In this document: in pieces, positions 7,194-64,000 of the stretch
Numbering within the stretch: position 1 is the first letter of the stretch
How the letters are laid out: each line of letters opens with the position of its first letter
NCBI GenBank assembly: GCA_025267735.1
Contig: CM046295.1
Span: 6,657,270-6,721,269, forward strand
Source of the DNA: Mactra quadrangularis
Taxonomy: Eukaryota; Mollusca; Bivalvia; Venerida; Mactridae
Direction of reading: 5' to 3'
DNA: 64,000 nt
Position numbers and translations under genes: made by a program
The notes under the pieces: generated by a model
What the model saw: only the letters and a program-made list of their open reading frames with translations
The model's database searches: none
What the model was told of the DNA's origin: nothing

Positions 7194-12349
<5,156 letters not shown>

Positions 12350-14751: not shown

Positions 14752-14797
<46 letters not shown>

Positions 14798-14800: not shown

Positions 14801-14900
14801 TAGCATCAATTGTTGCTTGTCTCAACATACAGACAATAGTTGAATACATTACAGTTCTCTCATTCGAACCACCCAATTTGATTAGTAAAATCATTTGATT

Positions 14901-17857: not shown

Positions 17858-18049
17858 AGGTGCTGATTTTTACGATGAGTAATGCTGTACCTTTATCAAA
17901 TTTGAATAAAAATGAATGTAGTATAAAGTTTGCAGAGCAAAACCTCAACAGAGCAAATGCTCTTCACAACAACAGTTTTTAGTTTGACTATTGAATAGTG
18001 GGGCTATCCTACTTAGCTATGTGTCGGCGTTGGCGTTGGCATAACACTT

Positions 18050-21056: not shown

Positions 21057-21148
21057 GTAAAATTTTAGATTTTTGTTGTTGTAATGTTTTCTTTTGTCAA
21101 ATAGCGTATTTGTGTTGTTCATTTCTTTTCGTTTTTAAAAGGCAGTAG

Positions 21149-42438: not shown

Positions 42439-45400
42439 ATGGAGGTTTATATTGAACACATTGCTACAGCGGACCTTCCAGCTTGGGACAGTTTTTGTGT
42501 GTTAGGGGTTGGACCTATCGTAAAATGCTCAAATCCCCCTCCCCCAGTGGCAACAATGTCCACTGTAAATATTGGCTTCAGGAAAAAGCAAAAGAGTTCT
42601 GCTAAAAAGAAATTGGATAAATCTGATCATGATTATGAATTGCCAAGAGGTATGCAAACGCCTAGAGAAATCATTGTGGAAGAAATAGTGAATGGTGTTG
42701 TGATTATTAAAAAGTTTATAGAAATTGAGGTGAAACATTTTTCAACTGATGACAGTCCTGATGTGAGTAGTTGTAGCCCATGCTCAAGTAGGTCAAATCA
42801 GACAATTGACCTTGATAGTGATAGATTTGACCTTGGAAGTGATAGATATGACATTGACACTTCAAGTGAGGCTGATAACGAAGCCTTGATAAACGAAATG
42901 AAATTTCGACTTGAAGAACTACTTGGAATACCTAATGAGCCTAGATCAACGATTCTAATCTCCGAAGAAGCTCTAACAGGGCCTGAGTTTGACACTGATT
43001 GTAAATCAAGCAGTGTTTCTAACAATGGATTTAGTTTAGTGTTTGATAGTCTATCTGATGACGTTTTTGAGACAGAGACGGACAAATCTGGAAGTCTTAA
43101 AGATTTGTCTATAACTTGTAGTGTACATAAGACTAAAGACAGAAATGCTGGAACTGAATTCGGAAATAAATCAGGTGATATTCGTTTACCAACTCATCGA
43201 AGTTTAGACTCAGATATAACATCCCATACCATATCATCGGAAGGTAGTAGTTTTGCCCTTTGGACTTTGTTTGGCTCCGAAAGTGGAGTTGATCGAACTG
43301 AACAGTTTATTCATTTGACTAAAAGTGGTAGTTTTGATCAAAAGAATGGTAAAACTTTAGTATCTGATGTTGAAAGTGGTAGTGGGTCAAACTCAAGCTC
43401 ACCTGGTGACAATAGTGAAAATAAATTTTCAAAATCCAACAGGGGAGGTTCAAATTCAAGTCAAAAACAGTGTGAGAATGAAATACAATCTAATAGTATG
43501 CATGTGTTAAGTGTGAACAATGGAAAGTTTGTTAAAGCTGAATCTGGGGTTGATATAGCAACTGATAAAAGTGAAGATGGTCAAACTTTTGATAATTTAA
43601 ACCATGTTCAAGGTCATGGTGACTTTGGTGGCGTTGGAAATGGTTGCCGTCAGAAGAAAGATTTATATCTTAATAACTGTGAATTGAATATAAACACTAA
43701 TGATTGCAATGAAGACGAATCGGATGAGAGTGTAAGCGTTTCTGTTGATCTGGAAATTTGTGTTCGTGTGTCATTAAATGAAGATGCAGCTACACAGAAT
43801 GTAAACGACCTTAGGCCTGGTACTCCTGTCGTTACTGACCCTTGTGTACTAATTGCAAGAGAGATTGTTGAAAAAGTTCTGGCAGCGGCTCAGCCTTTAG
43901 TGGCTCAGTCAACGGACAAAGCTTTGAAACAAAGACGTGAGAAACCTCATTTGTCAGTGTACGATGCTGACAATGATAATTATGGAAATAGGGGTGGAGC
44001 TGGAGGGGGTGGGTCTGGAGGGGGCGGAGCTAGAAGATTTAGTGGTGGGAGTTACGGTTCAGAATTTAGAGACAATGACAATGATAATGACCTTGACGAA
44101 AGTCAGAGTGAGGGTTTCTTTGAACAATCAACAGATTGGGATGGACAGTCTGATGTTACGAGTTGCAGGGAACTTGGAACTCACACTGATGTCTCTGCGG
44201 CTACATCTTTAGAGAGAATACCGGGTGTAGAAAGCCTTAATTGTAGTAGTATTAATCTGAGAGATGAGTTTGAAGCTGCCTTTGATAGTAAATCTAATGA
44301 ATCAGTTGTTGATTTTGAAGAATTTCAGAATGAGTTAAGTGGTCCATCCCATAGAACTTCAGAAGGAACAAGTGACGTAATGCATTCAAGCAATGTTGAA
44401 ATTACTGATGGAAATGATTTAATGTATTTGAGTGATAATGAAATTGGTGTTGATAATGAGCTTGATAAAACATTAGATAACAGTATTGAACATGTTACAA
44501 CAATGGCTTGTGATGTGATTGAAGAGGAAGATGAGGAATTCGAATGTTGTAGTGAAAGTTTTGAACTTGACTTTCCCAAGTTTGATATTACAGAGCAACC
44601 TTATAATGTATACTTTACTAATTATCCACATGTAAGTGTTCTATCTACCGTTATGGAAGAATCGGAAAGTAATACTACTACTGATTCTAATGGTACCAAG
44701 GATACCAAGAATGATAGAAGTTGCTATGGTGATAATAAAAAGATGGATAGAGTTTGTTTTGGTGGTGTTATTAAGGCAGACGAATGTTTCTATAGTAACG
44801 ATGACACCACTGAAACTGCGGCTTTTGGTGATGATGTGGATACTGGTGAAACTTCTGATGGTTTAACAGTTGAAGTTGGACATCATACATATAAATATGA
44901 TGACGATGATGAAGATGTTGGTGTTGTTGCTGTTAGAATTAATGATGATTATGGTGAAAATGATGATGGCAATGATGATGAGAATTATAGACTTGAAGAT
45001 AAATTCTCTGCAGAAGAGGTTGAAAAAGTTCTTAATGATTTAATTGAAGAAATCACTATGAATGTTGGAGAAGGTAGTGAACAGCCTAGTGCCATGGCAA
45101 TTATTATAGATGAAAATGATATGAATGCTAAACCTTCTTTTGAATACATTGAACTTACTGATCCTGACCACTGTGATGTTAATGTTCTTCTTAGTGAAGT
45201 CTTAGAAAAAGTTACACAAAATATGGGTGATGAAGATGAAAAGGACGAAACTGAACCACATCCATTGGCTGTCATAGTAGATGATGAAAGTTTTCAAAAT
45301 GGAAATAAAAGTTTATCGGAAGCTGTGTTGGGTATCAAGCCTCGAGATGACTTAGATCTAGTAATCATTGCACATCAGGAGTCTGAAGACAGTGATCTTG

Positions 45401-48400
45401 GTCTAGATGACTCCAGAGGCTTGGACAGTAGTGATGATTATATTACCTGTGTTAGCAGTGAGGATGAATATCATTATCCCGCTACTGATAAAGAAGATGA
45501 TGATGGTAACCATGACAACGATGATGTTCACTTTGAAGATACTAATACTGAATTTACTGAGGCATCTGATAATGGTGATTGTGGAAACGGCAATAATGGA
45601 GGAGATAAGTTAGTCTCTGTTAAACATGTAAGTGAAAAGGATTCGAAAATACTTATGCTTGATAGCGATACCGAAGCAAAATACGATTCAATACACAAAA
45701 GCCATGAATTCATGGAAACAACAGATGTTTCTATGGAGAAAATGGATGATAACAATATATCTATCGAGAAACCGGATGATGACAATGTTTCCATGGAGAA
45801 AGTGGATGATAACAATGTATCTATCGAGAAACTAGATGATGATAATGTTTCGATGGAGAAACTGGATGATGATAATGTTTCCATGGAGAAACTGGATGAT
45901 AACAATGTTTCCATGGAGAAAACAGATGATAACAATGTTTCCATGGAGAAACTGGATGATGACAATGTTTCCATGGATATTAACAATGTTTCTATGGAGA
46001 AACTGGATGATGACAATGTTTCCATGAAGAAAATGGATAATAACAATGCTTCCATGGTGAAACTGGATGATAACAATGTTTCCATGAAGAAAATTAATGA
46101 ATACAACGTGTCCATTGATAAACTAGATGAAAATGTAGACAATGGTGAAGAAGATACTGAAACACATGAGAAAACTGATATTGCAACTGACAAACCGTCT
46201 GAGATGGCCAATAAGATTGCAAATGATGAATTGTCAGAGAAAGCCGCTGACATTGCAACTGATGAATTGCTGCATGTGGACCAGACAGAGATAGGTAATT
46301 CTGAAAATGTCAAGGAGAATGAGGACATGGTTAGAAATACTGATGAAATTAATGATACAAACAGTTATTGTGTTGAAAATGAAATTGATATGACAGAACA
46401 AACCTACGAAGAAACTGTTATCAATATGTCAGACGAAAATAACTTCTCAGCTTATGAAGATAAGTTGACTGGTATTGTAAAGAACCATTCAATGGATATA
46501 CCACTAGCGATTAATAGTGAAGAATATGATTCAAATGGAGACAATTACACAATTGTTAAAGATAATGTTTTCAAGTCTCCAGAAAGTAACAATGACTTTT
46601 CTTTAAACCAGAGCACTGAACCAATAATGGAGATTAATCAAAATAATGAAGGAAATGTAAGATCAGATAATGAAAATGACAAAGTAAAAATAGATGGGAA
46701 ACATGATGATGCTATGTCACATGACACTGTGCTAATCAAAGAGGCTGCTGAAGTAAACATATGCTCAAATGATACAATCATTGAGAACAGCACTTTAGAG
46801 AATGAGGGTATAGATGTTGATAGAAACTCGAATGAAAAACTGGAACCAACTACAAATGATTACACTGATATGCTTGAAAACTTATCTGAAAATGAAGATA
46901 CAAGTACTGGGTTTATTACTGCTTCGAGTTCATATTTTGAGTTTGAAAATGCAGGCAGTAACATATATACTGATATTAAAATTGAAACATTGGCTGAAAT
47001 AGACATTGAAGCTGAAGATATGAGTAAAGCAGATCCAAATAAACCTGATATTAATGAAGAATCATTTGATATTGAAAACAGTGATAGCAAAGATAAAAAG
47101 AGTGATTTTGATAAAATGCATGGTGAACCTAATGAAACACAAACTACTGAGACACACATTGAGATTGCCGAAACACTTGTTGTGACTGATGAAAATCCGA
47201 AGGACAAAACACATGCTGAAAATGATGCGATAGTAAATGTAACCAGTGAAACATTTGTAGATGAAACAGAAGTTTATGAAACATCAGTGGAGGAAGCATA
47301 CATTGAAAAAAATGAAAGTCTCTCGGTATCCAATGAAACTGATGTTACTGAAACATCTGTGGAGATGATTGAAAACCCATTTGATAAAACACAAGATAAT
47401 GAAACCAAGTTTGATGAAGCTGAGTCTATTGAAACCTTAAATATGACTGTTGAAACACATATTGATAAAACCAATGTTGATATAAATCCAGGAGAAGAAA
47501 CATCAGTGGATGACACCCCAGTAGATACTGAGGTAATGCAAGTTAATGAAACACATGAATTTGCTACCCTAATTGGTATGGATGATACACTGCTTGTAAC
47601 CAATGAAATACCAGTTTTCAAAAATGAAAGATATTTAGATGAACTACAATTTGATGAAACCATAGCAGATGAGATGTCATTTAATAAAACACCAGTAGGC
47701 ATTGATGCATCTATCATTGGTGTAACTCCAATTGACAAAACACCAGTGATTACCGATGATACCGAAGGAAATAAAACACAAATGGAGACTGTCAAAACAC
47801 CAGTGGTGTCTGGTGTAGCACAAATAAGTGAAACATCAGTGGAGACTGATGAAACTCCAATTGATGAAACCCCCGAAATCACTGATGAAACACTGATTGT
47901 GACAGATGAAAAACATATCGATAAAACACAATTTGATAAATCACCAGTAGTCACCGATGTAACACAAGCAATTGAAACACCAATTGATGAAATATTGGTA
48001 GTCAGTGATGAAACACTGGTGGTGACTGATGAAGAACATGTTGATAAAACACCATTTAAGGAATCCCCAGTATTCATTGATAAAACACATGTAGATGTCT
48101 CACCAATTGATGAAACACCAGTAGTCACTGATGAAACATTGGTGGTGACTGTTGAAATGCAAGTGGTCACTGACGATGAAAAACAAGTCATTAAAACATC
48201 CATTGATAAAACGCCAGAAGTCACTAGTGAAACATCAGCAGTCACTAACAGAATACAATTTGATGAAGTTCCAATCAATGAAACACCCATGGTCACTGAT
48301 GAAACACCTGTTGCTGAAACACCAATTAATGAAACACTGCTTGTCACTGATGAAACACAGGTATTTACTGATGTAATAGAAGTTGATAAAATTCCAATTA

Positions 48401-51400
48401 ATAAAACACCCGTGGTCACTGATGAAATACAAGTTGATGAAACACCAATTGATGAAACTCTGAAAGTCACAGATGAAACACCTGTAAGTGAAACACACGT
48501 AGTTACTGATGAAATACAAGTTGATGAAACACCAATTGATAAAACAGTGGTAGTCACTGATGAAACACATATAGTTACCGATGAAAAACAAGTTAATGAA
48601 ACACCAATTGATGAAACACCAATTAATGAAGCACCAGTAGTCACTGATGAAATACCTGTAGTTACTGATGCAATACAAGTTGATAAAACACAAATTGATG
48701 AAACTACAGTAGGCACTGATGAAACAGCAGTAGTTACTAATGAAATACAAGTTGATGAAACACCAATTGATGAAACACTAGTAGTCACTGATGAAATTCA
48801 AGTTGATCAAACACCAATTGACGAAACACCGGTTGTTACTGATGGAATACAAGTCAATGAAACACCAAGTTATGAAACACAGATAGTCACTGATAAAACA
48901 CTGGTGGTCGTTAGTAAAATACAAGTCAATAAAACACCAGTTGATAAAACAACTGTAGTCACTGATATAACACTGATAGTCACTGATGAAACACTGGAGG
49001 TAACTGATGAAACACTGGAAGACACTGATGACACACCTGTAGTCACTGACGAAACACTGGTGGTCACTGATATAACACTGAATGTCACTAATGACACACC
49101 AGTGTTCACTGATGAAACACCGGTAGTCACTGAAGAAACACTTGTAGTCACTGATGAAACACCGGAAGTCACTAATGAAACACCGGTAGTCACTAATGAT
49201 ACACTGGTTGTCACTGATGAAACACTGGTAGTCACTGATGAAACAATGGTAGTCACTGATGAAACAAAGGTAGTCACTGATGAAACAATGGTAGTCACTG
49301 ATGAAACAATGGTAGTCACTGATGAAACACTGGTAGTCACTGATGAACCAATGGTAGTCACTGATGACACACCGGTGGTCACTGATGACACACCGGTGGT
49401 CACTGATGAAACACTGGAAGTAACTGATGAAACACTGGTAGTCACAGATGAAACACCGGTGGCTACTGATGAACCACCAGTGGTGACTGATGTAATAAAA
49501 GTCAATGAAACACCAATTAATGGAACAATGGAAGTCACTGATGATATACTGGCAGTTGATGATGAAATACAAGTCAATGAAATACCAATTGATGAAACCC
49601 TGGAAGTCACTAATGAAACATCGGAAGTCACTGTTGAAACACGGGTATTGACTGATGAAGAACAAGTCAATGAAACACCAATTGGTGAAACAGTGGAAGT
49701 CAGTGATGAAAAATCTCTGGTCAATGACGATGAAATACAAGTCAATAAAACACAAATTGATGAAACATCGAAAATCACTGATGAGACACTTGACATCACT
49801 GATGAAACGCAAGTGGTCACTAATGAAACATCTGAAGTCACTGATAAAACTCAGGAAATCACTGATGAAACGCCGAAGGTGACTGATGAAAAACTAGTAA
49901 ATGAAATACCAATTAATGAAGCACTGGTGGTTACTGATAAAACACCGACAGTGATGACTGATGAGACACCAGTGGTCATTGACGAAACACCCGAAGTGAC
50001 TGATGAAACACCGGAAGTCACTTATGAAACACTGGTAGTCACCGATGAAACACCGGAAGTCACTTATGAAACACTGGTAGTCACTGATGAAACACCAGAG
50101 GTCACTGATGAAACACTGGTGGTCACTGATGAAACACCAGAGGTCACTGATGAAACACTGGGAGTCACTGATGAAACACCAGAGGTCACTGATGAAACAC
50201 TGGGAGTCACTGATGAAACACCAGAGGTCACTGATGAAACACTGGTGGTCACTGATGAAACACCAGAGGTCACTGATGAAACTCCGGTGGACACTAATGA
50301 AACACTGGTAGTCACTGATGAAACACCAGAGGTCACTGATGAAACTCCGGTGGACACTAATGAAACACTGGTAGTCACTGATGAAACACCAGAGGTCACT
50401 GATGAAACTCCGGTGGACACTAATGAAACACTGGTAGTCACTGATGAAACACCTGTAGTCACTAATGAAACACCTGTAGTCACTGATGAAACACCGGTAG
50501 TCACTGATGAAACACCGGTAGTCACTGATGAAAAACTGGTAGTTACTGATGAAACACCTATGGTCACTGATAAATCACTGTTGGTCACTGATGAAACACC
50601 GGAAGTTACTGATGAAACACTGGTAGTCACTGATAAAACACCGGTGGTCACTGATGAAACACCGGTGGTCACTGATGAAACACCAGTAGTCACTGATGAA
50701 ACACCGGTAGTCACTGATGAAACACCGGTGGTCACTGATGAAACACCAGTAGTCACTGATGAAACAATGGTAGTCACTGATGAAACACTGGTAGTCACTG
50801 ATGAAACACCGGTAGTCACTGATGAAATACTGGTAGTCACTGATGAAACACTGTTGGTCACTGATGAAATGCTGTTGGTCACTGATGGAACACTGGTTGT
50901 CAATGATGAAACACCGGTGGTCACTGATGAAACCCCAGTAGTTACTAATGAGACCCTGGAAGTCACTGATGACACACCCATGGTCACTGATGATACACAG
51001 GTGGTCACTGATATAACACTGGAAGTCACTGATGAAACACCAGTGGTCACTGATGAAACACCGATGGTCACTGATGATACACCAGTGGTTACTGATGAAA
51101 CACTGGTAGTTACTGATGAAACCCTGGAAGTCACTGATGACACACCAGTGGTCACTGATGACACACCGGTGGTCACTGATGATACACCTGTAGTTACTGA
51201 TGAAACCCTGGAAGTCACTGATAAAACCCTGGAAGTCACTGATAAAACACTGGTAGTCACTGATCAAACACCAGAAGTCACTAATGAAATGCTGAATGTC
51301 ACTGGTGAAACACCGGTGGTCACTGATGAAACACTAGTTGTCACTGGTGAAATACAAGTCAATGAAACACCAATTAATGAAACACTGGAAGTCACTGACG

Positions 51401-54400
51401 ATGAAGTACAAATCAATGAAACACTAGTTGATGAAACACCTGAAGTCAGTAATAAAACACTGGTGGTCATTGATGAAACATCGTTGGTCACTGACAATGA
51501 AATACAAGTCAATAAAACAGTTGATGAAACATTGGAAGTGTTTAATGAAACACCGGTGGTGACTGACAAAATACAAGCTATTGAAACATCAATTGATGAA
51601 ACATTGGTAGTTGTTGATGTAACACCTGTAGATGAAACACCAATAATTGAAACAGTGGTAGTCATTGATGATACACATGTGGTGACTGATAAAATACAAG
51701 TCTATGAAACAGCGTTTGATAAAACATTGGTTGTCTCTAATAAAACACATGCAGTGACTGAAGAATCACCAATAAATGAAACTCTGGTTGTTACTGAAAT
51801 GCAACCTGTTGATATAAGAGTTGAATACTTTGAAACACAACCTGTTGAAATACAACCTGATGAAACTACTGAAACACAACCTATTAAAACACAACCTGTT
51901 GAAACGCAACCAGATGAAACACAACCTGTTGAAACACAACCTGTTGAAACACAACATGATGAAACACAACCTGTTGAAACACAACCCGTTGAAATGCAAC
52001 CAGATGAAACACAACCAGATGAAACACAACCAGTTGAAACACAACCTGTTGAAACACAACGTGATGAAACACAACCTGTTAATACAGAACCTGTTAAAAC
52101 ACATCCTGATAAAACACAGGATGTTGAAACACAACCTGATGAATCAAAACTTGTTAAAACATATGTTGAAACACAACCTGTTATGACACCACCTGATGAA
52201 ACTGTTAAAACACTACCTGTTGAAACACAAACTGGTGAAGCACAACCAGATGAAACTGTTGAAACACAACCTGGTAAAAATGTTGAAACTGTTGAAACAC
52301 TATCTGTTGAAACAGAATCTGTTGAAACACATCCTTATAAAAAAAATCCTGATGAAAATCCTGATGAAACATATGTTGAAGCACAACCTGGTGAAACACC
52401 TGTTGAAACTCTTGAAACACAACCTGATGAAACGCCAGTTGTTACCAAAATTGATGAATCACAGGTTGAAATTGTTGAAAGACAACCTTATAAAACATGT
52501 ATTGAAATAAGTAAAATAGTGAAGGAAAGTGATGCTGAAGATCATGGACATATTGTTGATGTGATAAATGTTGTGAATGGTCTAAAGAGTAGTGGTTCAG
52601 TAGATCACACAGAGATCACAGTGTCTTGTGAAGAAACAAGCAAAGTGGATAAACGTGATAAAAAGTCTGCACTTATTGATGCAAGAAAAGAAGATGCTAG
52701 TGATAAAATAGTTGGTAATGATTTTGATACTACGAAAGATGCTGGTCAAATGTCTGATAAAGCTGACGATTTTGATAGTGATGAAATAGTTGGGACTGTT
52801 CGTGATACTACAAAAGAAGCTGGACTAACTGCTGCTAAAGCTGAAGTTTGTGATAGTTTATCAGATAATTCTAAGGTTAATGATGGGAGTAATGATGCTA
52901 GTAGTGTTAACAGTACTGTTTACAAAAAAGATGTAAATAGTGTTGGTGATTCTGGTTCCAAGAAAAGTAACAATGCTAATTCTAATACTAAAGAGGAAAG
53001 CAAAAGTGCTGATTCTGGTTCCAAGAAAAAACTTAAAGCCAGAAAATCAAACTCTGAATCTATTGAGTATAGGAGAAAAGATTCCAAGAAAAGTGTTGAT
53101 TCTGTATCTGGATCGCAGGACAGTGATATCTTTGGGGATATAGATACCAATATGATTGGTTTAACAAAAGATGAGGTCAAGAGTGAAGTCACTAGATACA
53201 CCAAAGGAAAACCTAAGAGGGAATCAACCGACGTCAAAATGGTTGAGTCTACATATATTTTCTCTAATCAACAGCTCATTATTGTTATCAGTGAGGAGGC
53301 AAGTCATAGCAAACCATCCACAAGCAGTGGTAAGAAAGTAGCTGAGGTTTCATTTGATGAAAGTGCTGGTTTACATTGCATTAAAACTGCTTATGACAAA
53401 CATGCAGTAAGTAAGAGTAAAAAGCCCACTAGTATTAAACATGAAAGTGGTTCTACATCGACATCTTCATCTTCTTCCAAGTCAAAAAGGAAGTCATTGA
53501 AATCGCTTAAGAAACAGGAAAGAAATTGCAATATGGAAGAAAGTCCTTTATCTGATATTGATAAAGGAAAAGTGAAGGAGCGCCCATCTTCATCACGAGG
53601 TATGGAACCTCATCTTAAGACAGACAAAGAGCATCTCATTGTTGAAAAGTCTGAAGTTATTGATAATAGTTTTGAAAGTCCTTCGCTTCTTCCTGTTATT
53701 GAGTCACCCGATGAAGAGATTGTTAATGTTGATAAAATGGTCATTGGATCAAATAATATAGGTGAGGGAATATCATCCGATGGCTCTATTTCTGAATCTG
53801 GGTCAGATGGTGTGATTTCTGAATCTGGGTCAGATGGTGTGATTTCTGAATCTAGGTCAGATGGTGGGATTTCTGAATCTAGGTCAGATGGTGTGGTTTC
53901 TGAATCTAGGTCAGATGGTGTGATTTCTGAATCTGAGTCAGATGGTGTGATTTCTGAATCTAGGTCAGATGGTGTGATTTCTGAATCTGGGTCAGATTGT
54001 GTGATTTCTAAATCTGGGTCAAGTAGTGAAATTTTTGAAACTAAGTCAGTAGTTGAAATTTGTGATACTGGGTCATATGCGGCAATTTCTGAAAGTGATG
54101 TTGATATTGAACATACTCAATGTGATAAAGATATCAATGATACAATGGTTATGATGTCTTCTGTTGGAAATGTGAATGACTCAAATACCATTTCTGTTGT
54201 TAACAATGAAGATAAAGACAATGACAATGATGATAAAAGTGTGAAGAACGATGAGGAAATTATAGAAAGTGGAGATCTGTTTGTGCATACAGGTGATGAA
54301 GTACTAACAGAGGAGGATGGAATTGATGAAAGTGATACTGTTAAGACAGATGCAGCAATTAAAGATCCAGTAAATAATCTATCTATCAATTTTGAAGAGT

Positions 54401-57400: not shown

Positions 57401-60400
57401 CAGAAGAAAATGGTAATGTAGGAGACGGAAAAGCTGCTGGTAGTGATTTTGTTAAAACAGTTGCTGCATATAAATCACCTTTGGAAGAACCTGTCATCGA
57501 TGCTGTAGAAGGACGAAGCAATGAGGCTACAAAGACAAAGGTTGAGGAAGAAAGCAATTATGCTACTAAGAATGAGATTGATGAAGCAATTAAAATTGAC
57601 AGCTCTCATTGTGAACCTGAAGCTGAGACTTCGAATTGTGAAAGTGTGGTGCCTAAAAATAATGATGAGACAAGAATCGGTCTGGTACATGAAGAAAATA
57701 GTATTAATAGTGATGTAGGTGTTAATAAGGAAAGTATAGAAGTTCTTGTTGTTAATGATACTTACATTGAACAGCCTGAAACTGATTCTAAAAGGCAAAA
57801 TGATGGTGTAAGTGATGATGTTATGATCAATGCCAATTCATTAAGTGATAGTGTAAGTAAAAGAGTTGAACAAGCAAATAATGAGCTGGAACTAACTGAA
57901 AGTGAGATAGCTTCCAAAGCTATGGATATAAATGTGACTTCTAATGAATTGGAGAATGAAGTTCTTGATGCTACAGATGATGTACATGTACCAGAGGCAG
58001 TTGTTGAGAATAACCAGAATAAAGAGTATGATAAGAAAACAATGGAAATGGACTTGCCACATAGTACAACTGAAACTGAGTTTTCAAATAGTGGAAGTAT
58101 GGTGCCTAATGTAACTGACACTGCTATTGATGATGATAATATACAAGAAAAACATGATAAGGTTGCAGCTTCAATGAATGATGATGAAGTTGAACTGCAA
58201 TGTTTATCAGTAAATAATGATCCCCTGGCAGGAATGAGTGATGATAGTGAAAAAGTGCAAGAGTTGTCTGATAATAAAGATAATGATTTAATGGTGGATG
58301 GGAATGCATCTGAGGCTAATCTTTCTGATGCAGCATGTCATAAAGAAATAGAAGTGAATGCTTTTCCTGTTTCCCAAGAGGAGAGTGGTGATAGTAATGT
58401 TGATGAATTTTGTGAAAGTGACAGCAAGGTGAATGAGGTTAAACATGATAATACAATTTCAAAATTATTGAAGAACATTCATCTGAATGCTGGATATATG
58501 AATGATTTTACAATAAAAAAAGATTCTTCTTTAAACCAACCAAGTGATGTTTCTGATAAATCAGATAGTGCATCTAATGCAAAAGGTCAGAAAAGTGAAA
58601 ATGAAGATGCTAACACATTTGGTAGTAGTAAAGACAATTCAGTTGATTCTTCCGCATCAAATAAAAAAAGTTCAAGAGAACATGGTATCGTAGAAAACAA
58701 AACATATACCTCAGCTGAAAGTACAAAGGTTCAGAATATAACCCTGCAAAAAGAATCAAATGAGACAAAAGATACATCAAGGAAAACTCATTCAAAAGTT
58801 TCTAAGAGTAAAGAAAAAAGAAGCAAAGATAAGCCTAAAGCTGTTTCCGAAATAGATTTATCTATTGGCTTAGGCGTTAAACCTTTAGAAAATATGGAAA
58901 ATGAAGCAGATGAGACATCAAGGGAGTCTCAATCAAAATGTTCTAAAAGTAAAAGAAATAGAAGTAAAGATAAATATATAGCTAGTGAAGAAATAGCCAT
59001 ATCTTCTGACACAGGTGTGATACCTTTAGAAAATATGGAAAATGAATCAGATGAGACATTAAGAGAATCTAGATCAATAGTTTCTAAAAGTAAGGAAAAA
59101 AGTAGTAAAGATAAACAGAAAGAAACAGGTGTTTCACCTAACCTAGATGTGAACCCTTCAGAAAATGTAGCAAATGAGGTTTCTAACTCTAAGGCTAATG
59201 AACGGAAACCACAGTTATGTCATAGAAACACATTTGAAGTTGTTGCTGATGTGCATTATTCTATGGATGAAGAAGATTGTCGACCTAAAGTTTCCAAGTC
59301 AAAGAAATCGCTTGACAAAATTGATTTTAGTAAGAAAACATCTCATGACAAAATTGAAACGAGTAAAAAGTCATTGGATCATATTGATGTGGATAAAAAA
59401 TCACATAATGAGATAGATGACCTGAAGAAATCACATGATGAAATTGATGACCTAAGTAAGTCACAGGATAAAATAGATGATGTTATAATAGTGACTGATA
59501 AGAAAGACAAAAGTAGAAAGTCACGTGAGAAAAAGGACAAAAGTAAGAAATCTCACAATGAAATTGAGAAACATGAAAAATGTCATGATGAAATTAAGGG
59601 TGATAAGAAAACACGTGATGAAACTGAGGGAAGCAAGAAAACAAATGATAAAGTAAATGAAAAGTCACATGACCAAATGGAGGCAAGTAGGAAATCACAT
59701 GAAAAAACCACAGAAATGTCATGTGACCAAATTAAAGAAAGTAATAAATCTTATGATAAAGTAAATGAAAAGTCACATGACCAAATTGAGGCTAGTGAGA
59801 AAGCACAAGAAAAAAGCTTTGAAAAATCACATGATAAAGTGGAGTCAAGTAAAAAATCTCTTGAAAAAGTCAATGAAAAGTCACATGACAAAAAGGAGGA
59901 AGGTAATAAATCACATGATAAAATCAATGAGAAGCCACATGATCAAGGGGAGGCAAGTAAATCACATGATAGAGACAGTAAGGTTAAACTTAAGTCAAGT
60001 AAGAAGGCTAAAAAATCTAAATCCAAACATGATAAATATATACCCGATAGATTAATTCAAGGTCCTGATTATGATAATACTGTTCCTGGTGTGACGGAAC
60101 ATGATAACAGTACTGATAGTGTGGATGCTGGTCAGAACTTTATGGGAATTGAGGGCGATATTGCTGGAAGTGCATATGTCGAAGATTCAAAGAAGAAAAA
60201 CAAGAAAGAAAAGTCTAAAAGGGTTGATATTCCTGATAGGTTTATTCAGGGTCCTGATTATGATACCAATGCTCCTTCTACACATGAACAAGTTGCTGTT
60301 TTGCCATATACTGATAGTGTTATGACAGTTGAGTGCCAGGAACCTAATAACTCTATTGATATGTCAAATGCAGATGTAACCTCAAGTGAACTTGCTAGTG

Positions 60401-63400
60401 ATGTCGAAAAGGATGCATCAACCATTGATTCTAAAAATGGGACTGGAAATGAAATTGAAAAGGCTGAAATTGGTGAAGAGACTAGTCTACCAGAAAACAG
60501 TTACAGTGATGAAGATAATGCTGAAAATCTGGAGCAGCCTGTTCCAATAGCTGAGCTCTATGAGGAGAACCATGTTGTTCTTGAACCTGTACCGTATGAT
60601 GATAATAAAGATGTTCCTGAAATAAGGTTGCCAAGTGATGAAAAAGGAGTTCTTGAATCTGAGTTGCTAGATAATAAAAAAGTTGTTCTTGAACCTGTAC
60701 CGTATGATGATAATAAAGATGTTCCTGAAATAAGGTTGCCAAGTGATGAAAAAGTAGTTCTTGAATCTGAGTTGCTAGATGATAAAAAAGTTGTTCATGA
60801 ATCTGAGTTGCCAGGTGATGAAAAAGTAGTTTCTGAATCTGATTTGCCAGGTGATGAAAAAGTAGTTCTTGAATCTGAGTTGCTAGATAATAAAAAAGTA
60901 GTTCCTGAATCTGAGTTGCCAAGGGATGAAAAAGTAGTTTCTGAATCTGAGTTGCCAAGGGATGAAAAAGAAAATCCTGAATCTGAGTTGCCAGATGATG
61001 AAAAAGTAGTTACTGAGTCAAAATTGCCAGGTGATGAAAATTTAGTTTCTGAATCTGAGTTGCCAAGGGATGAAAAAGTATTTCCTGAGGCAAAATTGTC
61101 AGGTGATGAAAAAGTAGATCATGAGTCTAAATTGCCAGGTGATGAAAAAGTAGTTCCTGAGTTGCCAAGTGATGAAAATGTATTTCCTGAGTCAAAATTG
61201 CCAGGTGATGAAAATTTAGTTTCTGAATCTGAGTTGCCAAGGGATGAAAAAGTATTTCCTGAGGCAAAATTGTCAGGTGATGAAAAAGTAGATCATGAGT
61301 CTAAGTTGCCCAGTGATGAAAAAGTAGTTTCAGAGTCAAAGTTGCCAGGTGATGAAAAAGTAGTTCCTGAGTCAAAGTTGCCCAGTGATGAAAAATTAGA
61401 TCTAGAGTCAAAGTTGCCTGGTGATGAAAAAGAAGTCCATGATCCTGAGTTGCCAGGTGATGAAAAAGTAGTTCCTGAGTCAAAGTTGCCCAGTGATGAA
61501 AAAGTAGATCCAGAGTCAAATTTGCCTGGTGATGAAAAAGAAGTCCCTGATCCTGAGTTGCCAGGTGATGAAAAAGTAGCTTCTGAGTCTAAGTTGTCCG
61601 GTGATGAAAAAGTAGATCACATGTCTAAATTTCCTGGTGATGAAAAAGTAGTTCCTAAGTCAAAGTTGCCTGATGATGAAAAAGTAGATCTAGAGTCAAA
61701 GTTGCCTGGTGATGAAAAAGTAGTTCCTGAGTCAAAGTTGCCCGGTGATGAAAAAGAAGTCCATGATTCTGAGTTGTTAGGTGATGAAAAAGTAGTTCCT
61801 GAGTCAAAGTTGCCAGGCGATGTAATATTGGTTTCTGAATCTAACTTGCCAGACAATGAAAAAGTAGATCCTAAGTCTGGGTTGCCAAGTAATGAAAATG
61901 CAGTTCCTGAGTTGCCAGGTGATGTAGTTGTAGTTCCGGAGTCAAAGTTGCTAGGTGATGAAAAAGTTGTTCTTGAATCTGAGTTGTCTTGTGATGAAAA
62001 TGTAGTTCCTGAAACAAAGTTACCTAGTGATGAAAAAGTAGTACCTGAGTCTGAATTGCCTAATGATGAAAAAGAAGTTCATGAATCTGCACTTCCACCA
62101 TCAAATCAACACCAATATCAAGATTTAAGAAGTAGGAGTTTAAGCGATGTTTTATCAGACGGAAGGCTACCTCCAGATGGTGGAGAAGTTCTAATCAGTG
62201 CTAGAAATAGAACAGCTAGTCTGGGTAACCTGACAAAATATAAAACATTGACAGAATTTGATTGTAGAAAACAATTTTTTGAAACCAGGGGTAGAGTGAG
62301 CGGAGAGAGTCAGGATTTATCAATATTCAGAGAAAAATCTCGGCATTCCATAGATAAAAATACAACCACCATTATTGATGAAGGTCAAGGTCAACAGAAG
62401 GTCATTGAAAGTGAAGGTCAACTGCCATTATCTGAAGGTCAAGACCATCAGGTTGGCACACAAGGTGAAGGTCACCAGATAATATCTGAAGGTCAAGACC
62501 ATCAGGTTGGCACACAAGGTGAAGGTCACCAGATAATATCTGAAGGTCATGATCATCAGATTGTAACACAAGGTGAAGGTCACCAGATAATATCTGAAGG
62601 TCAAGGTCATAAGATTGTAACACAAGTTGAAGGTCACCAGATAATATCTGAAGGTCAAGGCGATCAAATTGGCACACAAGGTGATGGCCACAGTCATGTC
62701 AATGAAAATGACTTTCAAACTGATGGGAGACGGAATTCTGAATGTCTACAGTCCAATAACTACAGAAGGAGTATTGAACATGCAACCATTAAGGACATGT
62801 CAAACCTAACTGTGGTTGACATTGACCTTGACGGAGCAGGGGAGGAGTTTGAAGAAGAGGTTGGATGTGTAGATGCTGATGTGCTTTCAGTAAAGTTGAA
62901 AAAATGGTTGGCTGAAAGGCGGAGGTCATCACTTCAAGGTGAAACTGAACGATTTATAAAAGAGGCCTTTCCAGATGATATTTGCCCTACGCCAAGAAGA
63001 ATGCATCGCTTATGTGAACAGATTAAAAGAGAAACTAAAAGGAAAGATTCATTTATTAGGCAAAAGAATGAATCTATAGAAGGGGCTGCGCCGGGGTCAG
63101 GTCGAGATTTGTCTATCAGACGTTATGGGTCTGCTCAGAGTCAACGGAGTGTTGAATGCCTAGATAGGGAAATGACCCCTAGTCATCGGAGTCGTGATGG
63201 AAGCAGATCAAGACATCCTTCGATTGAAAGTATCGGAAGCCGAGGAGGCGGAGCTTCGCCAAAAGGAACGCCACACGCATCCCCATATGAGAGTATGGAA
63301 GATTTGCGATTTAAATGCCGGAAACCAGATTTTATCGAAGTAAGAAAATGTCAAAATGAGGCCAGGAACAGGAAAGCAGATTTTCTAATGAATGCTCATT

Positions 63401-64000
63401 TAAAAACTTTTGCAAAACCTAAACCTATTGTTGAGCCTAAGTTTGGCCCCTACAATCTTATCAAAGTGAAAAAGGGTCTGCCAAGGGATCAAAATTTTGA
63501 TAAAAGATATTACCATGATGCTAAAAAACTTGGGCTGTGCCCCAGAGTAGAAGTGGCCGAACAAGCAAAAAAAGTTGAATATGACATATACCGATATGAA
63601 CGTGAATTTAAACAAAATGAAAATCGGAATGTTCGGACATACGTTGAATCACAATATTTAAACTTAAATCAGATTTATCATCGAAGGAAGAAGCCTGAGC
63701 CGGGAGAAATAAGGCGAATCATCAGTCACAGCCAGATAACCAATAAACAAGTGGGATTGATGAATGCTGCCAGTGGTTATCAAAACGAACAGCCTATAGA
63801 CAGGAACGCTGATCAATACATGAATAGCAGATGTATGAATAACTATGGCAATTCATTGACACCGAAACTTTCATATCGTACATGTAATCAAGATAATGCA
63901 AACCAGTCTTATAGGAGTAATTTAGAACAGGGACTGGTTTACGATCGGGATAAAGAACAATATTATCTATTGGGACTTAGAGAACCACAAGATCCAAATG
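42439..64000 (+). CDS. giant repetitive acidic protein, at least 7,187 residues in one exon, 3' end outside the window
   Basis: An uninterrupted frame from ATG 42,439 (context AAT-ATG-G; in-frame TGA at 42,427) to the window end, partial at its C terminus. Layout by residue: 1-1096 acidic/Ser-rich with a Gly run near 519-531 and hydrophobic helices at 473-484, 861-872 and 914-925; 1097-1233 VSMEKLDDDN repeats; 1603-3120 VTDETPV-type heptads; ~3130-3354 ETQPV; 3780-3860 SDGVISESR; 4031-4066 EEFVERDDKNNV; 4167-4290 a less acidic island; 5445-5585 three ~47-residue units; 5615-5867 Lys/His-rich SHDKI repeats; 6061-6550 ELPGDEKVVPES; 6658-6752 GEGHQIISEGQ; ~6819-7187 basic and aromatic, possibly folded. 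No signal peptide, membrane segment or catalytic motif was seen, so it is probably cytoplasmic. I recognise no family. An upstream exon (20.3 kb) may join at acceptors ending 42,469 or 42,481, making the ATG internal or an alternative start. Giant exons of this style occur in ankyrin, futsch/MAP1, AHNAK and CMYA5 genes, but I see no matching domain. Confidence 0.93.
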   Translation, partial: MEVYIEHIATADLPAWDSFCVLGVGPIVKCSNPPPPVATMSTVNIGFRKKQKSSAKKKLDKSDHDYELPRGMQTPREIIVEEIVNGVVIIKKFIEIEVKHFSTDDSPDVSSCSPCSSRSNQTIDLDSDRFDLGSDRYDIDTSSEADNEALINEMKFRLEELLGIPNEPRSTILISEEALTGPEFDTDCKSSSVSNNGFSLVFDSLSDDVFETETDKSGSLKDLSITCSVHKTKDRNAGTEFGNKSGDIRLPTHRSLDSDITSHTISSEGSSFALWTLFGSESGVDRTEQFIHLTKSGSFDQKNGKTLVSDVESGSGSNSSSPGDNSENKFSKSNRGGSNSSQKQCENEIQSNSMHVLSVNNGKFVKAESGVDIATDKSEDGQTFDNLNHVQGHGDFGGVGNGCRQKKDLYLNNCELNINTNDCNEDESDESVSVSVDLEICVRVSLNEDAATQNVNDLRPGTPVVTDPCVLIAREIVEKVLAAAQPLVAQSTDKALKQRREKPHLSVYDADNDNYGNRGGAGGGGSGGGGARRFSGGSYGSEFRDNDNDNDLDESQSEGFFEQSTDWDGQSDVTSCRELGTHTDVSAATSLERIPGVESLNCSSINLRDEFEAAFDSKSNESVVDFEEFQNELSGPSHRTSEGTSDVMHSSNVEITDGNDLMYLSDNEIGVDNELDKTLDNSIEHVTTMACDVIEEEDEEFECCSESFELDFPKFDITEQPYNVYFTNYPHVSVLSTVMEESESNTTTDSNGTKDTKNDRSCYGDNKKMDRVCFGGVIKADECFYSNDDTTETAAFGDDVDTGETSDGLTVEVGHHTYKYDDDDEDVGVVAVRINDDYGENDDGNDDENYRLEDKFSAEEVEKVLNDLIEEITMNVGEGSEQPSAMAIIIDENDMNAKPSFEYIELTDPDHCDVNVLLSEVLEKVTQNMGDEDEKDETEPHPLAVIVDDESFQNGNKSLSEAVLGIKPRDDLDLVIIAHQESEDSDLGLDDSRGLDSSDDYITCVSSEDEYHYPATDKEDDDGNHDNDDVHFEDTNTEFTEASDNGDCGNGNNGGDKLVSVKHVSEKDSKILMLDSDTEAKYDSIHKSHEFMETTDVSMEKMDDNNISIEKPDDDNVSMEKVDDNNVSIEKLDDDNVSMEKLDDDNVSMEKLDDNNVSMEKTDDNNVSMEKLDDDNVSMDINNVSMEKLDDDNVSMKKMDNNNASMVKLDDNNVSMKKINEYNVSIDKLDENVDNGEEDTETHEKTDIATDKPSEMANKIANDELSEKAADIATDELLHVDQTEIGNSENVKENEDMVRNTDEINDTNSYCVENEIDMTEQTYEETVINMSDENNFSAYEDKLTGIVKNHSMDIPLAINSEEYDSNGDNYTIVKDNVFKSPESNNDFSLNQSTEPIMEINQNNEGNVRSDNENDKVKIDGKHDDAMSHDTVLIKEAAEVNICSNDTIIENSTLENEGIDVDRNSNEKLEPTTNDYTDMLENLSENEDTSTGFITASSSYFEFENAGSNIYTDIKIETLAEIDIEAEDMSKADPNKPDINEESFDIENSDSKDKKSDFDKMHGEPNETQTTETHIEIAETLVVTDENPKDKTHAENDAIVNVTSETFVDETEVYETSVEEAYIEKNESLSVSNETDVTETSVEMIENPFDKTQDNETKFDEAESIETLNMTVETHIDKTNVDINPGEETSVDDTPVDTEVMQVNETHEFATLIGMDDTLLVTNEIPVFKNERYLDELQFDETIADEMSFNKTPVGIDASIIGVTPIDKTPVITDDTEGNKTQMETVKTPVVSGVAQISETSVETDETPIDETPEITDETLIVTDEKHIDKTQFDKSPVVTDVTQAIETPIDEILVVSDETLVVTDEEHVDKTPFKESPVFIDKTHVDVSPIDETPVVTDETLVVTVEMQVVTDDEKQVIKTSIDKTPEVTSETSAVTNRIQFDEVPINETPMVTDETPVAETPINETLLVTDETQVFTDVIEVDKIPINKTPVVTDEIQVDETPIDETLKVTDETPVSETHVVTDEIQVDETPIDKTVVVTDETHIVTDEKQVNETPIDETPINEAPVVTDEIPVVTDAIQVDKTQIDETTVGTDETAVVTNEIQVDETPIDETLVVTDEIQVDQTPIDETPVVTDGIQVNETPSYETQIVTDKTLVVVSKIQVNKTPVDKTTVVTDITLIVTDETLEVTDETLEDTDDTPVVTDETLVVTDITLNVTNDTPVFTDETPVVTEETLVVTDETPEVTNETPVVTNDTLVVTDETLVVTDETMVVTDETKVVTDETMVVTDETMVVTDETLVVTDEPMVVTDDTPVVTDDTPVVTDETLEVTDETLVVTDETPVATDEPPVVTDVIKVNETPINGTMEVTDDILAVDDEIQVNEIPIDETLEVTNETSEVTVETRVLTDEEQVNETPIGETVEVSDEKSLVNDDEIQVNKTQIDETSKITDETLDITDETQVVTNETSEVTDKTQEITDETPKVTDEKLVNEIPINEALVVTDKTPTVMTDETPVVIDETPEVTDETPEVTYETLVVTDETPEVTYETLVVTDETPEVTDETLVVTDETPEVTDETLGVTDETPEVTDETLGVTDETPEVTDETLVVTDETPEVTDETPVDTNETLVVTDETPEVTDETPVDTNETLVVTDETPEVTDETPVDTNETLVVTDETPVVTNETPVVTDETPVVTDETPVVTDEKLVVTDETPMVTDKSLLVTDETPEVTDETLVVTDKTPVVTDETPVVTDETPVVTDETPVVTDETPVVTDETPVVTDETMVVTDETLVVTDETPVVTDEILVVTDETLLVTDEMLLVTDGTLVVNDETPVVTDETPVVTNETLEVTDDTPMVTDDTQVVTDITLEVTDETPVVTDETPMVTDDTPVVTDETLVVTDETLEVTDDTPVVTDDTPVVTDDTPVVTDETLEVTDKTLEVTDKTLVVTDQTPEVTNEMLNVTGETPVVTDETLVVTGEIQVNETPINETLEVTDDEVQINETLVDETPEVSNKTLVVIDETSLVTDNEIQVNKTVDETLEVFNETPVVTDKIQAIETSIDETLVVVDVTPVDETPIIETVVVIDDTHVVTDKIQVYETAFDKTLVVSNKTHAVTEESPINETLVVTEMQPVDIRVEYFETQPVEIQPDETTETQPIKTQPVETQPDETQPVETQPVETQHDETQPVETQPVEMQPDETQPDETQPVETQPVETQRDETQPVNTEPVKTHPDKTQDVETQPDESKLVKTYVETQPVMTPPDETVKTLPVETQTGEAQPDETVETQPGKNVETVETLSVETESVETHPYKKNPDENPDETYVEAQPGETPVETLETQPDETPVVTKIDESQVEIVERQPYKTCIEISKIVKESDAEDHGHIVDVINVVNGLKSSGSVDHTEITVSCEETSKVDKRDKKSALIDARKEDASDKIVGNDFDTTKDAGQMSDKADDFDSDEIVGTVRDTTKEAGLTAAKAEVCDSLSDNSKVNDGSNDASSVNSTVYKKDVNSVGDSGSKKSNNANSNTKEESKSADSGSKKKLKARKSNSESIEYRRKDSKKSVDSVSGSQDSDIFGDIDTNMIGLTKDEVKSEVTRYTKGKPKRESTDVKMVESTYIFSNQQLIIVISEEASHSKPSTSSGKKVAEVSFDESAGLHCIKTAYDKHAVSKSKKPTSIKHESGSTSTSSSSSKSKRKSLKSLKKQERNCNMEESPLSDIDKGKVKERPSSSRGMEPHLKTDKEHLIVEKSEVIDNSFESPSLLPVIESPDEEIVNVDKMVIGSNNIGEGISSDGSISESGSDGVISESGSDGVISESRSDGGISESRSDGVVSESRSDGVISESESDGVISESRSDGVISESGSDCVISKSGSSSEIFETKSVVEICDTGSYAAISESDVDIEHTQCDKDINDTMVMMSSVGNVNDSNTISVVNNEDKDNDNDDKSVKNDEEIIESGDLFVHTGDEVLTEEDGIDESDTVKTDAAIKDPVNNLSINFEELNETIPELNDRRQQIAITNNATELKSDFEVQVNDTIVDNKIDLEEFVERDDKNNVKEFVERYDKNDIEEFVEKDDKNDNFSLANSHCLEKMCESFVENNKSGFTLKNDEQTLLLTEVIAKSEDNVESVTGASNEDYASDVNVHIDDNTTREQGNDKVSEIGVNSGDNVTSEHENDTVSDIGVWKAPRNILPTGTSTKRLCRARSIMVSDANMKFGGLQRKPSLSQICRTSSVYKAVEMSYESQDLSFDRTDTIERALNDNFEKRGSPQSTIYDNVEDEDDDWDVDMDSLKNKITILSNVIGETNCKILLPQNAIDKGLDGASFSLDENRSESHDYLQTSLEAEANNCDIKACEDSTNVEFDEESTAVSDVEAIEEVMEGINLKDEDNTNEEAINADKTEDNKEENLVYVYMTNSQTEEVKIDDVVETKIEINVAEKTNVDIVDLTSEVEEDMSKVVKTEVEINNDTAESNVEICEDFKTEEVEIDNCVETKSDVNVAVKIDFDNVMAGDVESSEATKDEVELIENVKKEAEAENCQPVTGEGTFGEVQSNESATGEVQSNEHAIGVIKSNENVDISKACITETEIIEGVESDTKMNETPKTEVVVQIMVAEKPEISEIVTYDDDNVDPLKTDVVVEIYETTDEKDEIDEIAKNEVVEEINDITKTEEEIKEIHNNEGHMNEVSLTVEKNNESTKTNADNEVSGDTTKMTNLNAYKNTEVEMNEITKTGAEGDMKKAMNIEAEEIALAGEVINEVTKLETENCDVYETDSEKGSIEIAKSKIKGEVDEPVETEPEGATSVRFETIKIEDKNVTKYTEEKADIHISKFDHIANSTQELDDKGKPATNVISLEEERYPEHQQTLNIDVEKTAEDKTKASTSILVEQSDDALLEDDSRYFPNERVEEGHVQNEDQFSVPDQREVSHPRVEVISYIEVIEATSIDSFDGLYLGAQVQDDDVLQINGNVNAVATNVRAQEVDDNNLQMIDNENALDTNIGEVAKAGTEENGNVGDGKAAGSDFVKTVAAYKSPLEEPVIDAVEGRSNEATKTKVEEESNYATKNEIDEAIKIDSSHCEPEAETSNCESVVPKNNDETRIGLVHEENSINSDVGVNKESIEVLVVNDTYIEQPETDSKRQNDGVSDDVMINANSLSDSVSKRVEQANNELELTESEIASKAMDINVTSNELENEVLDATDDVHVPEAVVENNQNKEYDKKTMEMDLPHSTTETEFSNSGSMVPNVTDTAIDDDNIQEKHDKVAASMNDDEVELQCLSVNNDPLAGMSDDSEKVQELSDNKDNDLMVDGNASEANLSDAACHKEIEVNAFPVSQEESGDSNVDEFCESDSKVNEVKHDNTISKLLKNIHLNAGYMNDFTIKKDSSLNQPSDVSDKSDSASNAKGQKSENEDANTFGSSKDNSVDSSASNKKSSREHGIVENKTYTSAESTKVQNITLQKESNETKDTSRKTHSKVSKSKEKRSKDKPKAVSEIDLSIGLGVKPLENMENEADETSRESQSKCSKSKRNRSKDKYIASEEIAISSDTGVIPLENMENESDETLRESRSIVSKSKEKSSKDKQKETGVSPNLDVNPSENVANEVSNSKANERKPQLCHRNTFEVVADVHYSMDEEDCRPKVSKSKKSLDKIDFSKKTSHDKIETSKKSLDHIDVDKKSHNEIDDLKKSHDEIDDLSKSQDKIDDVIIVTDKKDKSRKSREKKDKSKKSHNEIEKHEKCHDEIKGDKKTRDETEGSKKTNDKVNEKSHDQMEASRKSHEKTTEMSCDQIKESNKSYDKVNEKSHDQIEASEKAQEKSFEKSHDKVESSKKSLEKVNEKSHDKKEEGNKSHDKINEKPHDQGEASKSHDRDSKVKLKSSKKAKKSKSKHDKYIPDRLIQGPDYDNTVPGVTEHDNSTDSVDAGQNFMGIEGDIAGSAYVEDSKKKNKKEKSKRVDIPDRFIQGPDYDTNAPSTHEQVAVLPYTDSVMTVECQEPNNSIDMSNADVTSSELASDVEKDASTIDSKNGTGNEIEKAEIGEETSLPENSYSDEDNAENLEQPVPIAELYEENHVVLEPVPYDDNKDVPEIRLPSDEKGVLESELLDNKKVVLEPVPYDDNKDVPEIRLPSDEKVVLESELLDDKKVVHESELPGDEKVVSESDLPGDEKVVLESELLDNKKVVPESELPRDEKVVSESELPRDEKENPESELPDDEKVVTESKLPGDENLVSESELPRDEKVFPEAKLSGDEKVDHESKLPGDEKVVPELPSDENVFPESKLPGDENLVSESELPRDEKVFPEAKLSGDEKVDHESKLPSDEKVVSESKLPGDEKVVPESKLPSDEKLDLESKLPGDEKEVHDPELPGDEKVVPESKLPSDEKVDPESNLPGDEKEVPDPELPGDEKVASESKLSGDEKVDHMSKFPGDEKVVPKSKLPDDEKVDLESKLPGDEKVVPESKLPGDEKEVHDSELLGDEKVVPESKLPGDVILVSESNLPDNEKVDPKSGLPSNENAVPELPGDVVVVPESKLLGDEKVVLESELSCDENVVPETKLPSDEKVVPESELPNDEKEVHESALPPSNQHQYQDLRSRSLSDVLSDGRLPPDGGEVLISARNRTASLGNLTKYKTLTEFDCRKQFFETRGRVSGESQDLSIFREKSRHSIDKNTTTIIDEGQGQQKVIESEGQLPLSEGQDHQVGTQGEGHQIISEGQDHQVGTQGEGHQIISEGHDHQIVTQGEGHQIISEGQGHKIVTQVEGHQIISEGQGDQIGTQGDGHSHVNENDFQTDGRRNSECLQSNNYRRSIEHATIKDMSNLTVVDIDLDGAGEEFEEEVGCVDADVLSVKLKKWLAERRRSSLQGETERFIKEAFPDDICPTPRRMHRLCEQIKRETKRKDSFIRQKNESIEGAAPGSGRDLSIRRYGSAQSQRSVECLDREMTPSHRSRDGSRSRHPSIESIGSRGGGASPKGTPHASPYESMEDLRFKCRKPDFIEVRKCQNEARNRKADFLMNAHLKTFAKPKPIVEPKFGPYNLIKVKKGLPRDQNFDKRYYHDAKKLGLCPRVEVAEQAKKVEYDIYRYEREFKQNENRNVRTYVESQYLNLNQIYHRRKKPEPGEIRRIISHSQITNKQVGLMNAASGYQNEQPIDRNADQYMNSRCMNNYGNSLTPKLSYRTCNQDNANQSYRSNLEQGLVYDRDKEQYYLLGLREPQDPN
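45727..46137 (+). repeat. coding repeat 1: 10-residue VSMEKLDDDN, 14 units
   Basis: 30-bp period. Thirteen full-length or nearly full-length units and one shortened unit (VSMDINN, seven residues, near 45,967). Each pairs a Ser before a basic residue with an acidic tail. Confidence 0.95.
47245..51800 (+). repeat. coding repeat 2: VTDET(P/L)(V/E) heptads, ~1,500 residues
   Basis: 21-bp period. The core at 48,955-51,340 is nearly pure heptads (about 110 units). The flanks mix in 5-7-residue variants such as IQVDETPIDET and IDKTP. Thr and acidic residues dominate, with no aromatic residues over long spans. Higher-order units occur near 50.0-50.45 kb. Confidence 0.95.
51826..52500 (+). repeat. 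coding repeat 3: ETQPV/ETQPD pentapeptides
   Basis: 15-bp period, about 25 good units at 51,835-52,080, then diverged (VKTYVETQPV, ETVETLSVETES). Confidence 0.93.
53776..54018 (+). repeat. coding repeat 4: SDGVISES(R/G) nonapeptide, 9 units
   Basis: 27-bp period, nine contiguous units with very few changes, suggesting recent expansion. Downstream units (SSSEIFETK) decay. Confidence 0.95.
54529..54636 (+). repeat. coding repeat 5: EEFVERDDKNNV, 3 units
   Basis: 36-bp period, three units with K/E, R/K and D/Y exchanges. Confidence 0.9.
58771..59190 (+). repeat. coding repeat 6: three ~47-residue units
   Basis: Units start near 58,771, 58,909 and 59,050. Each runs DETSRES..., then a basic SKSKEKRSKDK core, then (V)xPLENMENE. 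The third is the most diverged. Confidence 0.88.
59281..60030 (+). repeat. coding Lys/His-rich SHDKIE repeat block
   Basis: Irregular 11-20-residue units such as KKSHDEIDDL and NEKSHDQIEAS. It is strongly basic within an otherwise acidic protein and ends in KSSKKAKKSKSK. Confidence 0.85.
60040..60267 (+). repeat. duplicated IPDR(L/F)IQGPDYD motif
   Basis: Two copies, 60,040-60,081 and 60,229-60,267, each directly after a Lys-rich run. The identity of 9 of 11 core residues amid disordered sequence suggests a binding motif. Confidence 0.8.
60619..62088 (+). repeat. coding repeat 7: ELPGDEKVVPES dodecapeptide, ~40 units
   Basis: 36-bp period. Early copies sit in a larger 108-bp duplication (VLEPVPYDDNKDVPEIRLP at 60,577 and 60,685). 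Variants alternate Gly/Ser/Arg before DEK. Antisense frames stay open for the same reason and are not genes. Confidence 0.95.
62410..62694 (+). repeat. coding repeat 8: GEGHQIISEGQDHQVGTQ, about 5 units
   Basis: 54-bp period. At the DNA level each unit carries two or more GAAGGTCA words; the same AAGGTCA words occur in the 20.3-kb exon. Confidence 0.93.

Follow-up and report, generated by a model that had tools for sequence, protein, structure and literature searches.

A predicted 21.5-kb internal exon that encodes a giant, acidic and likely disordered repeat chain

AHNAK is a giant protein that is encoded in essentially one exon; it consists of repeats of about 128 residues and has no catalytic domain. 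MAP1B/Futsch and the tails of neurofilaments are long, charged and disordered repeat chains that space cytoskeletal elements, whereas mucins are marked by repeats rich in proline, threonine and serine, by mucin domains and by a signal peptide. Exons of 20 kb are rare. Most human internal exons have a length of 50-200 nt, and internal exons that are long often encode disordered regions, as reported in PMC9825244. For the repeat exons of human mucins, a preprint gives alleles of MUC12 that are predicted to reach 23,080 residues and repeat alleles of MUC4 of up to 27.8 kb (PMC13345508). A further set of very long exons is found in the giant ankyrins, where they have been described for the bilaterian groups examined in PMC5135030; in protostomes, they are located after the Death domain. 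According to the same report, these exons rank with the longest frames in the respective genomes, a subset contains tandem repeats, and the encoded products are rich in S, E, T, D, K and P, where S and E together amount to about 25% and all six residues to more than 55% (PMC5135030).

Here, we analysed a stretch of 64,000 nucleotides (the window; G000:C3:6,657,270-6,721,269 in an assembly of 979 Mb). On the plus strand, one reading frame is uninterrupted from 42,430 to the window end and comprises 7,187 codons counted from the ATG at 42,439. The preliminary description had claimed that this frame is open to the last base of the window and that its unique stretches are open as well as the repeats, and we can confirm both. 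In the flanking DNA, the frame is closed by a TAG at 64,060, which is 60 bases beyond the window, so that it has 7,207 codons from the same ATG and a stop-to-stop length of 7,210 codons in the assembly. The remaining five frames of 42,439-64,000 contain 428, 1,651, 492, 270 and 157 stops. Five segments of the frame are free of repeats (1,056, 448, 1,774, 204 and 455 codons, 3,937 in total) and none of them contains a stop, whereas the minimum among 300 dinucleotide shuffles per segment was 62, 24, 121, 9 and 16 stops, respectively. The longest open run across all these shuffles was 164 codons. If codons are taken as independent, the chance of 7,150 open codons is about 10^-217 at the 0.067 stops per codon of the preceding intron. 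Furthermore, all 65 tandem-repeat rows inside the giant frame have a period that is divisible by 3, compared to 11 of the 34 rows in the rest of the window (rows overlap and are not independent), and codon position 1 is the GC-richest position in each of 15 blocks of the frame. Between repeat copies, four of the seven arrays gave a dN/dS of 0.46-0.64 in the true frame, two others gave 0.75 and 1.14, and for the last one it was undefined; this measure failed to separate true from wrong frames, for which it ranged from 0.19 to 3.83. We conclude that the giant open frame is real and more than a product of chance, with stops being avoided in its unique and in its repeated parts.

We predict that most of this frame constitutes a single internal exon on the plus strand at 42,548-64,057 (21,510 nt, 7,170 codons), which extends from the window (up to 64,000) into the flanking DNA and has phase 1 at both ends. 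The prediction is based on the open frame, an acceptor and a donor. Scored with two matrices of rough splice-site frequencies, the acceptor at 42,548 (tract CCCCCTCCCCCAG followed by TGG, phase 1) outranks 99.9% of all AG sites between 20 and 62 kb and, with the second matrix, belongs to the best 0.7% between 12 and 123 kb; the donor at 64,058 (G followed by GTTAGT, phase 1) is in the top 2.5% and is located exactly where the frame ends. Such an exon would be about a hundred times the usual length. Since the exon would begin at 42,548 behind a strong acceptor whose phase matches an upstream exon, the ATG at 42,439 is probably intronic. The in-frame stretch containing it (42,439-42,547, plus strand, about 36 residues) ends in the tract CCCCCTCCCCCAG and probably still belongs to the preceding intron, of which it would be the last part, and one of the coding scores begins at 42,583 and not at this ATG. 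Thus, of the previously described single coding exon of at least 21.5 kb, the very long coding frame is retained, but the start at ATG 42,439 is not: the exon is predicted to be internal and to be preceded by another coding exon.

This upstream coding exon is predicted at 20,288-21,056 on the plus strand, with an ATG at 20,288, a phase 1 donor at 21,057 and support from the coding score. The first coding score is passed by three segments before 42.4 kb, of which only 20,270-21,070 is on the plus strand; a general codon model also ranks this segment far above all others there (52 versus 11). The donor of this exon (21,057) ranks no higher than the top 6%. An acceptor within the exon, at 20,424 (phase 1), is in the top 2%, and it is possible that the upstream exon is shorter and internal via this acceptor instead of starting at ATG 20,288. 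As donor 21,057 and acceptor 42,548 are both in phase 1, the two exons would be joined in frame, where the predicted protein reads RSNSRLSTSQ before and VATMSTVNIGF after the junction. The predicted intron (21,057-42,547, plus strand) has a GC skew of +0.14 and no strong coding segment, and might include small extra exons; Pfam gave no match in the three plus frames of 12-42 kb. Because the giant exon has phase 1 at both ends, the frame would be kept if the exon is skipped, and it is possible that one short isoform exists beside the giant isoform.

Positive GC skew can be read as a mark of plus-strand transcription. Around the giant exon, the skew goes positive at about 17.75 kb and drops at about 84.1-84.6 kb (right edge with a permutation p of only 0.035), and we predict that the plus strand is transcribed between about 18 and 84 kb. 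The left edge is in or beside a dispersed element and its position is therefore uncertain. This element (about 17,515-17,860, about 345 bp) is CpG-rich and palindromic, matches itself on both strands and has at least 80 rows in the genome, with the best 40 of 6,259 candidates scored.

Several other features were observed in the window and its surroundings. On the minus strand, exons of DHFR are located at 10,145-10,279 and 11,027-11,152 (DHFR_1 with 9.1e-09, over the cut-off, and 0.017, below it), and 5,073-5,165 is by eye perhaps the start of DHFR, although without a Pfam match. An open frame of 523 codons on the plus strand (2,959-4,530) resembles the final part of a LINE-type reverse transcriptase, with a match to zf-RVT (9.2e-05) that stays below the cut-off. 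Asp/Asn-rich simple-repeat stretches at 14,532-14,873 (minus strand) and at 72,382-72,642 and 78,207-78,533 (plus strand) score as coding, but are probably no genes. Outside the window, the minus strand contains coding segments with ankyrin-repeat-like sequence at about -29,100 to -18,900 in window coordinates, which we take to be reminiscent of synphilin, and a tandem repeat at -2,679 to -2,161 that reads LVRALGNHVKKRRLY repeatedly.

Within the giant exon, unique sequence alternates with arrays of units of 5, 7, 9, 10, 12 and 18 residues, all read on the plus strand. From its start to its end, these are a 10-residue array of the NNVSMEKLDD type (45,720-46,130), a 7-residue array of the VTDETPV type (48,942-51,352, with looser related repeats from near 47,849), a 5-residue array of the ETQPV type (51,830-52,399), a 9-residue array of the ISESGSDGV type (53,788-54,021), an 18-residue array of the KSHD type (59,621-59,961), a 12-residue array of the ELPGDEKVVPES type (60,627-62,088) and an 18-residue array of the GEGHQIISEGQ type (62,411-62,691). 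The remainder of the exon in the window (62,692-64,000, plus strand) is free of repeats and has no stop in 455 codons, compared to at least 16 in the shuffles.

The predicted exon product has 7,170 residues, a mass of 794 kDa, a pI of 4.22 and a net charge of about -1,000; it contains 12.6% E, 11.0% D and 4.3% P, and the last 170 residues of the exon are basic (pI 9.0). Each of 15 blocks has a charge-hydropathy value on the disordered side, and the product is likely disordered, with no stable fold. An AlphaFold2 single-sequence model of 434 residues of the end is of low confidence (mean pLDDT 39.6, pTM 0.17), so that a fold is neither shown nor excluded by it. We also considered a brush phosphorylated at CK2-type sites and found no sign of it, as these sites are not enriched and are fewer than in shuffled sequences (247 compared to a mean of 303).

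We detected no credible Pfam domain in the giant exon or in the upstream exon, which agrees with the earlier statement that no domain is recognised. Two profiles scored over their cut-offs in the exon (Drf_FH1, 4.4e-19; HV_Gp350_C-term, 2.4e-09) and two below (LbR_Ice_bind, 4.7e-05; RDM3_C, 0.044); the best stretches of all four are in tandem arrays, and we read them as matches to composition and not as domains. A search of a large protein collection gave nothing at E <= 0.001 for 369 residues of the end, for residues 6750-7187 of the whole protein or for 600 residues near the start (with the best 7,977 word-sharing candidates scored); as the collection's share of animal proteins is uncertain, this absence is weak. 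Likewise, two pieces were searched against PDB sequences without a hit at E <= 1, phage records gave no match either, and we recognised nothing in the literature that describes the exon. The suggestion that the protein or its family is undescribed is thus weakly supported, by the lack of a relative in a collection of uncertain animal coverage. For a piece of 500 residues from the start, a piece of 434 residues from the end and the upstream exon, the genome contains no match besides the queried sequence itself, and the gene with the giant exon is apparently single-copy.

Taken together, we favour the reading that the locus contains one internal exon of 21,510 nt (42,548-64,057) in a plus-strand gene, and that its acidic and likely disordered product of 7,170 residues would act as a very long flexible spacer or scaffold arm; we consider this reading rather probable, albeit well short of certain. 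We infer the role as spacer or scaffold arm because of the charge, the repeats and the absence of domains. A charge of about -1,000 would keep the chain unfolded and self-repulsion would extend it. The extended chain could then tether or space whatever is bound by its two ends, with the binding being done by the ends, and in-frame growth of the repeats may have lengthened the chain at little cost. The giant exon might serve to test what allows the splicing machinery to recognise an exon of such length and what keeps growing repeats in frame.

Further predicted coding sequence lies downstream of the giant exon. From 84.5 kb onwards, predicted plus-strand exons match Arm (9.8e-06) and TIR_2 (8.8e-14), both over the cut-offs, and have a SAM-like match below the cut-off (0.019). 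This ARM-TIR gene spans about 84,512-111,027 on the plus strand in window coordinates; its serine-rich exon at 89,086-89,873 occurs once in the genome. The giant exon could encode an N-terminal arm for the ARM-TIR protein, the exons of which lie 20-47 kb downstream, if 64,057 is spliced to 84,512 and a short isoform starts from the ATG at 84,517. The first ARM-TIR exon (84,512-84,724) likewise begins and ends in phase 1, so that splicing it to the giant exon would preserve the frame, but phases agree by chance in one of three cases. Both lie on the same strand, the positive GC skew persists to 84.1-84.6 kb, and the plus frames of 63.7-83.7 kb contain no Pfam domain that would mark the end of another gene; however, the drop of the skew at this position is expected if the giant gene ends there. 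Furthermore, the acceptor at 84,512 is weak (top 22%), and the ATG at 84,517 is well placed just past it, in a good start context. We thus regard the link as possible but doubtful. A further argument for a single gene, which took CpG-normal peaks (e.g. 17.4-18.1 kb) as promoters and noted none at 84.5 kb, was dropped, as the peak holds the dispersed element of about 345 bp. If the link exists, which we suggest only tentatively, a skippable exon of 21.5 kb would put an acidic disordered arm of 0.8 MDa before an ARM-TIR-SAM-like module, and the same gene would encode a TIR protein in two forms, one short and the other giant and tethered. With a contour length of 0.35 nm per residue, the TIR module would then be located on a chain of about 2.5 micrometres (7,170 residues), which would be a new kind of architecture and would connect giant disordered spacers with TIR proteins.

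Alternatively, the giant exon could conclude the coding sequence of a separate gene, whose translation would stop at the TAG at 64,060 and which would continue as 3' untranslated sequence or non-coding exons. The TAG is in frame and many AATAAA signals follow it, the first at 64,425, although this signal is frequent in AT-rich DNA of such kind. The alternative has to account for a donor in the top 2.5% that has the same phase as the acceptor and is located exactly at the end of the frame, and for a GC skew that stays positive for another 20 kb. We consider this ending unlikely, but would give it some weight.

Since the chain is very acidic and repeat-rich, it could also be imagined as a secreted acidic matrix protein or a mucin-like protein. 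The predicted start MEFERINCSEHDYDYCHD, however, is charged and has by eye no signal peptide, proline amounts to only 4.3%, and Pfam found no mucin domain in the exon or the upstream exon, which makes secretion quite improbable.

In length, repeats and composition, the exon is similar to the long exons of giant ankyrins as described in PMC5135030, so that it could be such an exon itself. To judge this, the genome offers a control. In a search of the genome, UPA_2 was found at a single locus, on C11 (44,869,780-44,870,555), whereas the window is on C3. A Death domain (6.7e-10) follows about 2 kb after the UPA. Three long frames of 2,023, 1,787 and 2,972 codons lie downstream on the same strand, with 34 kb between the Death domain and the first of them. 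In these frames, S and E amount to 28.3, 27.5 and 26.6% and the six residues to 59.6, 57.0 and 55.5%. The locus as a whole (G000:C11:44,791,089-44,870,555) includes the UPA, the Death domain and the three long frames, and its composition is as reported for giant ankyrins. We take it as an ankyrin gene with its own long exons, which would be spliced to the ankyrin exons; the long frames behind its Death domain thus serve as a positive control from the same genome. The occurrence of such a locus in the assembly is consistent with a bilaterian animal. The gene with the giant exon lacks the UPA of the ZU5-ZU5-UPA core, a test based on UPA_2 that found C11 only, and no Death domain was found upstream of the giant exon, where the three plus frames of 12-42 kb are without a Pfam match. 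That the giant exon belongs to a giant ankyrin gene is therefore hardly credible and, judged by these domain searches, the exon on C3 is part of a gene other than ankyrin. Scarcely more tenable is the idea that the giant frame is stop-poor repeat DNA and no gene: tandem repeat makes up roughly a third of the exon (summed rows) and protein searches gave no homologue, but the stop-free 3,937 non-repeat codons contradict it when compared to the shuffles, as do the abundant stops in the five other frames and the codon-position bias.

Lastly, we compare the favoured reading, a giant internal exon that encodes an acidic spacer, to the known systems. With AHNAK it shares the giant single-exon repeat protein without a catalytic domain; however, the units of the main arrays have 5-18 residues and not about 128, and the product is strongly acidic. 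The repeat exons of mucins (MUC4, MUC12, MUC16) are alike in being single giant exons that consist partly of tandem repeats, whereas the product described here is acidic, rich in E and D, has 4.3% proline and is predicted to be intracellular. The comparison also bears on the earlier claim that the exon is among the largest in animals, which is fair, although the exon is no record: the human MUC4 and MUC12 repeat exons are longer according to the preprint (PMC13345508). A long, charged and disordered repeat chain is also found in MAP1B/Futsch and in neurofilament tails, but Pfam detected no MAP1 or filament domain in the exon or upstream exon and the repeats are unlike those known from these proteins. 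Similar in architecture are also the giant ankyrins (vertebrate AnkG, Drosophila Ank2-XL and C. elegans unc-44), which likewise have one very long exon that is rich in the six residues and sometimes bears tandem repeats. Here, the exon on C3 has 21.5% S and E and 53.1% of the six residues, a little below the reported values of about 25% and more than 55%; it is 2.4 times as long as the longest frame found at the ankyrin locus on C11 (7,170 compared to 2,972 codons), and its gene contains no ankyrin domain as far as seen. We thus regard the predicted giant exon as a new, apparently single-copy case of a known design, in which a giant exon encodes an acidic, disordered repeat chain. This suggests that the giant acidic exon design may be used by at least one further gene besides ankyrin.
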